DNA from: Erythrobacter sp.
Lineage (GTDB): Bacteria > Pseudomonadota > Alphaproteobacteria > Sphingomonadales > Sphingomonadaceae
Reading direction: 5' to 3'
DNA length: 64,000 nucleotides
Assembly (NCBI RefSeq): GCF_030066995.1
Contig: NZ_JASJAP010000007.1
Span: 62,001-126,000, forward strand
Notes under the pieces: model-generated
What the model saw: only the letters and a program-made list of their open reading frames with translations
Told to the model about the DNA's origin: nothing
Databases searched by the model: none
Part shown: piece after piece, positions 47,862-49,765 of the stretch
How positions within the stretch are numbered: position 1 is the stretch's first letter
Layout: the number at the start of each line of letters is the position of its first letter
Program-made: the position numbers and the translations under genes

Positions 47862-49765
47862 GTGAAATTGAAGATGTTTTTGAGCAGCGCGGCGATTGGC
47901 GCGCTGGCTTGGAGCGCACCTGCGCTTGCGCAGGATGGTGATGGAGAGGATACGAACGCGCAAGTGATTGGAACTGGTCCGTTTCCAATCCTCGTGACTG
48001 CCTCTCGCAGCGAGAGCGTTCTCGTCAGTGACTTCACCGGTTCGGTGACTGTCATCACCCCTGAGCAGATCGACCAACGCCAAATCCGCAATATCGAAGA
48101 CGCGCTTCGCGATGTGCCGAGACTCGCTGTGAGCAGCATCGCCGGGCAGACGCAGATCCGCTTGCGCGGGACCGAGGCGAACCATGTGCTCGTACTGGTC
48201 GACGGGATCGAGGTCTCCGATCCGGGCAGCGGCGAATACGATATCGGCACGCTGCAAGCCGAGATCGGCAGCTGTGTTGAGGTTCTGCGCGGACCCCAGT
48301 CCGCTGTGTGGGGCAACGATGCGATCGGCGGCGTGGTTTCGTATCAAAGCGCGAGCGGACGCGATTTGGATGGTTTCGCGACCTTCCTCGAAGGTGGAAC
48401 CAACAATACGGTTAACGGCTCGGCACGCTATGGTGTGGTGGGCAAGGGTTGGGATGCGGCTCTGTCGGCAACCCTAGTCAGCACCGATGGCGAACCTAAC
48501 ACGCGCGCGGCGGTGAACGCGACATTGGCCGCGACAGCTACACTCTCTCAGGCAAGGATGCGGTCGAGGTTGCCGATAAGCTCACCCTGCGCGCCGTCGC
48601 CCGGTACGTCCTGACTGAGGGTGACTTCAACGATCAGGTTGCTGGCATCCTAGTGGACAGCCCCGGAACCCGGTTCGAGAACGAGACCGTCTCGGCACTG
48701 GTTGGTGCGCGGCTGGATTTGCTCAACAGCGCGTGGACACACGATCTCTCCGCGCAAATCACCGACGCCAACCGCCAGACGGACGCGCCGACCGGCTTTC
48801 CAAGCTCGACCGAAAGCGACCGCTTCGAGGCCTCTTTTGTAACAGTTTACGACTCTGGCGGGACCGATCACTCGCTTACATTCGCTGCGGATTATGAGCT
48901 CGAAGGGTTCAACAATGTCCTGACCTTCGATGATCGCAACGAAGCTGAGAATATCGGTTTTGTCGGCCAGTATCGCTACGCGGGCGACGACTTCGACGTC
49001 TCCGCCTCGCTGCGCCACGATATCAACGATCTATTTGAGGACGCTACCACCTTTCGCGTGGGCGCGGGGTTTCGCGTCACCGACACCACCCGCCTGCGCG
49101 CTTCGCTGGGAACTGGCGTGAAAAACCCAACGCTCAGCGCGCTGTTCGGCTTCTTCGATGGGGTTTTCGTGGGCGATCCCGATTTGCAGCCCGAAAAATC
49201 GACCGGCTGGGAAGTGGGCCTGGATCAGACCTTGGCCGCTCGCCGGTTGACGGTCTCGCTAACCTATTTTAACGCCGAACTCGAGTACGAGATTTTCTCC
49301 GTCTTCGATCCCGTCACCTTTGTCTCCTCTCCCGATAATCGGACGACGAAGAGCGCGCAGCAGGGTGTGGAACTAGCTGGATCGGCCGATCTGGGCAGCG
49401 GGTTCACTTTCAACGGGGCGTATAGTTTTCTCGAAGCGGAAGAGAACGGAGCGGAGGGAATTCGCCGACCCAATCATCTCGCCAGCGCCGTGCTGGACTG
49501 GACGGCGAAGGATAAGAAGGCTTCGGCCAATCTGGCGGTGCGCTATAACGGTGAGGCGCTGGATGACAATTTTGCAACCTTCCCAGCGACGGTTGAGACG
49601 CTGGAGGCCTACACGCTGGTTAACTTCAATGTCCGCGTGAAGCTGATCGATGGCATCTATCTGTTCGGTCGGATCGAAAACCTGCTCGATGAACAGTACG
49701 AGCAGGTCTTCAGCTTTGTTTCGCCCGGCGTCAATGGTCTAGTGGGCTTTGAAGCGCGGTTCTAA
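47862..49765 (+). pseudogene. btuB: TonB-dependent cobalamin receptor with frameshift
   Basis: A BtuB-like outer-membrane receptor split between two frames. The first frame (47862-48614) has a signal peptide ending ALA|Q, a TonB-box-like ILVTASR, and the plug domain (IEDALRDVPRLAV, LRGPQSAVWGNDAIGGVV) to the first barrel strands. The rest (to 49765, ending GLVGFEARF with terminal Phe) continues in the -1 frame. Codon reading places the switch near 48500-48510, in ACGCGCGCGG, consistent with loss of one base. The restored protein would be about 634 residues, normal for the family. It may be a true pseudogene or a sequencing error in the GC run. GTG start after AAAGGGA. Confidence 0.85.

Follow-up and report, generated by a model that had tools for sequence, protein, structure and literature searches.

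Does a broken receptor gene beneath a cobalamin riboswitch mean that a bacterium has lost the uptake of vitamin B12? The window (the 64-kb stretch of DNA that we analyzed, G000:C9:62001-126000) contains a BtuB-like receptor gene, which we will call btuB1, that is divided between two reading frames. The preliminary description proposed that, if the break is real, the strain has lost a B12 uptake receptor. The genome that carries the window (G000), from a bacterium of marine type, is 3.30 Mb in 9 contigs and is 99.97% complete, and we compared it with 48 genomes from the same genus; among the relatives, G004 is strain YT30. We think it probable (roughly 83%) that btuB1 is a decaying and redundant receptor gene, dispensable through a second B12 importer that is encoded at another locus. 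The features at the locus are as follows.

47425-47500, + strand: tRNA-Ala (CGC), upstream of the riboswitch (ARAGORN and Rfam)
47533-47741, + strand: cobalamin riboswitch aptamer (RF00174), nearly intact (Rfam, 92.5 bits, full model)
47862-48614, + strand: first reading frame of btuB1 (signal region and plug), with family sequence to about 48502, then out-of-frame residues and a stop
48495-48521, + strand: site of the frame break, where 17 nt separate the conserved PN and RDIG codons
48503-49765, + strand: second reading frame of btuB1 (beta barrel), open until its stop (reading frame and domain match)
48629-48649, + strand: second lesion in btuB1, with seven residues missing in frame and a junction at about 48637/48638 (alignment of orthologs)
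49807-50880, + strand: obgE, the next gene downstream, which starts 41 nt past the stop of btuB1

Among 41 loci taken from relatives, btuB1 and obgE are adjacent in 39, and the remaining two stop at a contig end. The tRNA-Ala gene adjoins obgE in G026 too (ARAGORN). Further upstream, the gene at 46308-47336 begins with a stretch that includes a long run of prolines and might encode a lipoprotein; it lies beside obgE in G024 and G026 as well. Among the named relatives found with the barrel half of btuB1, the closest are Erythrobacter records (67% and 66%); no record of the same species turned up in this search, whose coverage of such records may be incomplete.

The change of frame near 48500-48510 is as the preliminary description had it. 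The first frame contains the plug domain (PF07715, 87.2 bits, 1.3e-24; cut-off 23.9), and the second contains the barrel domain (PF00593, 126.7 bits, 2.8e-36; cut-off 27), so both halves do retain family sequence. A TonB-dependent receptor should have its plug and barrel in one open frame, and in G000 they are in two. Forty of the 41 loci from relatives hold both halves (the locus of G034 is cut by a contig end), and all 40 have the halves joined in one frame at the break point. Counting G000 itself, it is the only one of 41 loci with both halves that is broken there. The spacing from PN to RD-I-G is 17 nt in G000 versus 15 nt in 39 of the 40 relatives (38 found by pattern; G037 was missed by the pattern and read by eye). 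In G021, whose row has the shortest path to that of G000 in the tree, the spacing is 27 nt. From this alignment, the event is best described as a net change of +2, or of -10 if a longer loop like that of G021 is ancestral. The lesion had been called a one-base frameshift, which agrees with these spacings only modulo 3.

The break is not the only lesion. Near 48637/48638, G000 has nine residues in place of the 16 that are found in all 37 intact orthologs. With the frame break, this gives btuB1 disabling lesions that its orthologs lack, as expected of a pseudogene. Also, columns of the barrel that are otherwise invariant are altered at 10 of 95 positions in G000, versus 3 of 98 in the next rows (G004, G008, G021, and G033). 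By Fisher exact tests, uncorrected, p is 0.047 against each of these rows and 0.005 against G020. If columns are chosen at a 95% threshold instead, 15 of 124 are altered in G000, versus at most 9 of 130 elsewhere. The plug half of G000 is ordinary (2 of 50 invariant positions changed), and in pairwise comparisons neither pN nor pS is raised overall in G000.

Could the receptor be whole in the organism, with the break being a sequencing or assembly error in the CG-rich run? The site does lie in a simple CG-rich run, 420 codons without stops follow it, and the overall pN and pS that we just mentioned fit an error as well. Such errors also occur in this genus: btuB1 is split in G012 and in G031, inside the barrel and further down than in G000, and these two splits are likely to be assembly errors, because obgE is split as well in G031 and metH is split in G012, where metE was not found. 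(Both genomes, with loci L114 and L115, are single contigs.) Against an error in G000, one would have to account both for the second lesion and for the surplus of altered invariant sites in the barrel, and partner genes (btuF1 and btuC1) have decayed at another locus. General assembly trouble in the window can be rejected. We compared 54 non-overlapping ORFs of YT30 that have a counterpart in the window, and only btuB1 lay in two frames; 51 were in a single frame with at least 80% covered, and two were partial. obgE, uvrA, and metH are whole in G000. Because of the second lesion, the barrel changes, and the decay of btuF1 and btuC1, we consider an artefact unlikely; the loss of btuB1 in G000 fits a real and young event. 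The earlier wording, "recent or artefactual," thus holds in its first part, as both halves still resemble the family and the break should therefore be young, and much less in its second.

The two halves might instead both still be used, by programmed frameshifting or as a split receptor. Both frames are open and family-like, as this would require. Nevertheless, none of the 40 relatives is broken at this point, which rules out a split receptor as a feature of the genus; moreover, signal region and plug are both missing from the second half, and there is the second lesion. We give this idea almost no weight.

The riboswitch upstream of btuB1 matches the RF00174 aptamer over its full length (model positions 1-189, versus a gathering threshold of 31.5 bits) and is accepted as a whole aptamer. 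We compared it with those of 35 relatives, leaving out G003, G007, G012, G031, and G034 although their riboswitches matched. The window copy differs at 2 of the 78 positions that are invariant in the relatives; the corresponding count is 0 for 31 relatives and 1, 1, 2, and 7 for the others. With the threshold lowered to 90%, its count is 2 of 93 positions, which is unremarkable; six relatives have three or more differences. One of its two changes (at 47612) is to the letter of the Rfam consensus, and the other (at 47558) makes a non-standard core pair. So, what had been described as an intact B12 riboswitch is full-length and high-scoring but only nearly intact, with one core pair altered.

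The preliminary description proposed a check for another btuB elsewhere in the genome, and there is one. A second cobalamin riboswitch (G000:C1:413902-414111, 114.1 bits, full-length RF00174) lies upstream of an intact receptor gene, BtuB2. On one side of BtuB2 are btuF, btuC, btuD, cobQ, cbiB, an aminotransferase, and cobU, and on the other side are cobO, a phosphatase, cobS, and cobT (except for BtuB2, these genes were recognized by sequence and not by family searches). Judged from its gene content, this cluster is a set for corrinoid uptake and salvage. In the stretches of G000 that we read around the cluster, we recognized no genes for making the corrin ring. MetH is present in G000 and MetE was not found. 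The usual two-part metH is on contig C4, and the part of MetH that binds homocysteine is encoded a second time, beside the cobalamin cluster (L006:5264-6358, G000:C1:403350-404354). A loss of B12 uptake by the strain is suggested by the broken receptor in the window, but with intact BtuB2, BtuF, BtuC, and BtuD downstream of a second riboswitch, it is scarcely credible; we reject a loss of the uptake genes.

Decay is also seen in the native ABC transporter genes. In G004, btuF1, btuC1, and btuD1 are flanked by uvrA on one side and by a cell-wall hydrolase and GGDEF gene on the other, and each of the three gave a single unbroken match in eight relatives (G004, G012, G018, G020, G021, G036, G037, and G040). 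At the same place in G000 (G000:C1:1240500-1241900), we found residues 161-276 of btuC1 on one strand, residues 27-95 of btuC1 on the opposite strand, and residues 210-303 of btuF1. We found no btuD1 in G000; the sole match, of 29 residues, was judged to be spurious. The adjacent UvrA of G000 (L111:2135-5128, on C1) has 997 amino acids versus 971 in G004, with about 26 extra in-frame residues that resemble a translated palindromic repeat. Interruptions near this stretch occur in the UvrA matches of G025, G030, and G037 as well.

Across the 48 genomes, btuB1 is intact in 37, split in G012 and G031, and cut by contig ends in G007, G013, G015, and G034. None was shown in G005 and G010 (both fragmented) or in G024, G026, and G036. 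BtuB2 (at least 50% identity) is present in G000, G024, G026, G036, and G040. The BtuB2 of G000 is closer to that of G026 (76% identical) than to that of G024 (69%), although G024 is probably the sister of G000. In G024 and G026, the neighbors of btuB1 adjoin each other without btuB1, no riboswitch is left at the locus, and native btuC was not found: the BtuC linked to BtuB2 is the only one found. At the uvrA locus, the hydrolase is directly next to uvrA in G026, and in G024 a contig end interrupts the locus 3.4 kb upstream. The BtuB2 locus of G024 gave matches for btuB2, F, C, and D only, and that of G026 also for cobC, cobS, and cobT. G036 retains btuFCD1; its obgE contig matches only residues 207-357, and the absence of btuB1 there may be an assembly gap. 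G040 has both systems (BtuB2 and an intact btuB1). Besides these, G025 has three cobalamin riboswitches and a further receptor (G025:C10) that is 41% like btuB1, in addition to an intact btuB1, and G059, from the same order, has seven cobalamin riboswitches.

Overall, 4 of the 5 genomes with BtuB2 lack an intact btuB1, versus 8 of the 44 others (p = 0.010, Fisher exact test, ignoring shared ancestry). Without six fragmentary cases, the comparison is 4 of 5 versus 2 of 38 (p = 0.0006, again ignoring ancestry), and if G036 is set aside too, it is 3 of 4 versus 2 of 38 (p = 0.003, with the same caveat about ancestry). In a tree built from UvrA and ObgE for 30 genomes (ObgE was available for 27), the sister of G000 is G024 (SH-aLRT 90), and the pair groups with G021 and G020 (98). 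The presence of BtuB2 requires four changes on this tree, which is not significant clustering (84 of 500 shuffles were as low).

Our reading that btuB1 is decaying and redundant draws on its frame break and second lesion, the intact BtuB2-BtuFCD cluster, the scrambled btuF1 and btuC1, and the two BtuB2 carriers that have no btuB1. The best reading of the whole is a replacement of one importer by another, caught midway; the pseudogene is probably real and is ordinary in kind, and its setting is instructive. In the genus, the riboswitch-controlled btuB1 would be the usual outer-membrane receptor for B12. In G000, BtuB2-BtuFCD2 would carry B12 to the B12-dependent methionine synthase MetH, and this second importer presumably relaxed selection on the first system. 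The native ABC genes would have decayed before the receptor, whose frame was probably lost more recently. Translation from 47862 would now stop at 48614, which should yield a non-functional peptide that lacks the barrel, under a riboswitch that remains above the truncated frame. Several of the comparisons given above count against redundancy: G040 carries BtuB2 and keeps btuB1 intact; G036 retains btuFCD1, and its lack of btuB1 may be a gap in the assembly; and pN and pS show no increase, the changes in the plug half are unremarkable, and BtuB2 is not significantly clustered on the tree.

A different cause for the same loss is that the break was selected for another reason, such as escape from phage or bacteriocins, with the second importer merely making the loss tolerable. 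BtuB of E. coli is a known receptor for phage and colicins, so a benefit of this kind is conceivable. It would leave unexplained the parallel decay of btuFCD1, which encodes inner-membrane components and not a surface receptor, and we consider it improbable, more so than a sequencing error.

By homology, btuB1 is BtuB-like without being a member of the TIGR01779 equivalog as that model defines it: its halves score 91.3 and 106.2 bits and the intact ortholog from G004 scores 219 bits, versus a curated cut-off of 599.7 bits. BtuB2 falls short as well (298.6 bits). Even so, TIGR01779 (BtuB; E. coli structures 1nqe, 1nqf, and others) is the best NCBIfam match for both the G004 ortholog and BtuB2, and E. 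coli BtuB is the best solved relative of both (2.5e-37 and 1.3e-40, respectively). From these best matches and the linkage to riboswitches across the genus, we infer that btuB1 encoded a cobalamin transporter. The likeness to BtuB extends to the riboswitch upstream; the differences are the scores, which are far below the cut-off, and the lack of a single frame for btuB1 in G000. Both riboswitches of G000 are full-length and above the gathering threshold of RF00174, and it is the window copy, with its altered core pair, that precedes a broken gene.

Another sphingomonad, Sphingomonas haloaromaticamans, resembles G000 in what the excerpted account of it reports: it has MetH, no MetE, no corrin-ring genes, and salvage genes for corrinoids, and several cobalamin riboswitches lie upstream of receptors (PMC6970198). 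Neither a broken receptor nor the replacement of one importer by another is mentioned in those excerpts (PMC6970198). Our literature search found no report of such a replacement, which does not prove that none exists.

It had also been proposed that the window riboswitch controls nothing else visible. This is true for B12 genes, and obgE begins shortly after btuB1. A promoter and terminator scan of 47300-50000 found no promoters and no terminator on the + strand (two terminators were found, both on the - strand). We can speculate, with little confidence, that BtuB2-type importers enter several lineages, that losses are then staged (native ABC genes, receptor, riboswitch), and that a leftover riboswitch may put obgE, which encodes an essential GTPase, partly under the control of B12 by read-through across the 41-nt gap, where no terminator was seen.

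Finding a broken B12 receptor gene in a genome does not by itself imply that B12 uptake is lost, and counts of riboswitches can overestimate the number of working B12 genes. One supported clade contains genomes with the native system only (G021 and G020), with both systems and the native one decaying (G000), and with the second system only (G024). Because these states occur within one clade, the order of loss in a transport system that is being replaced could be tested with more isolates.
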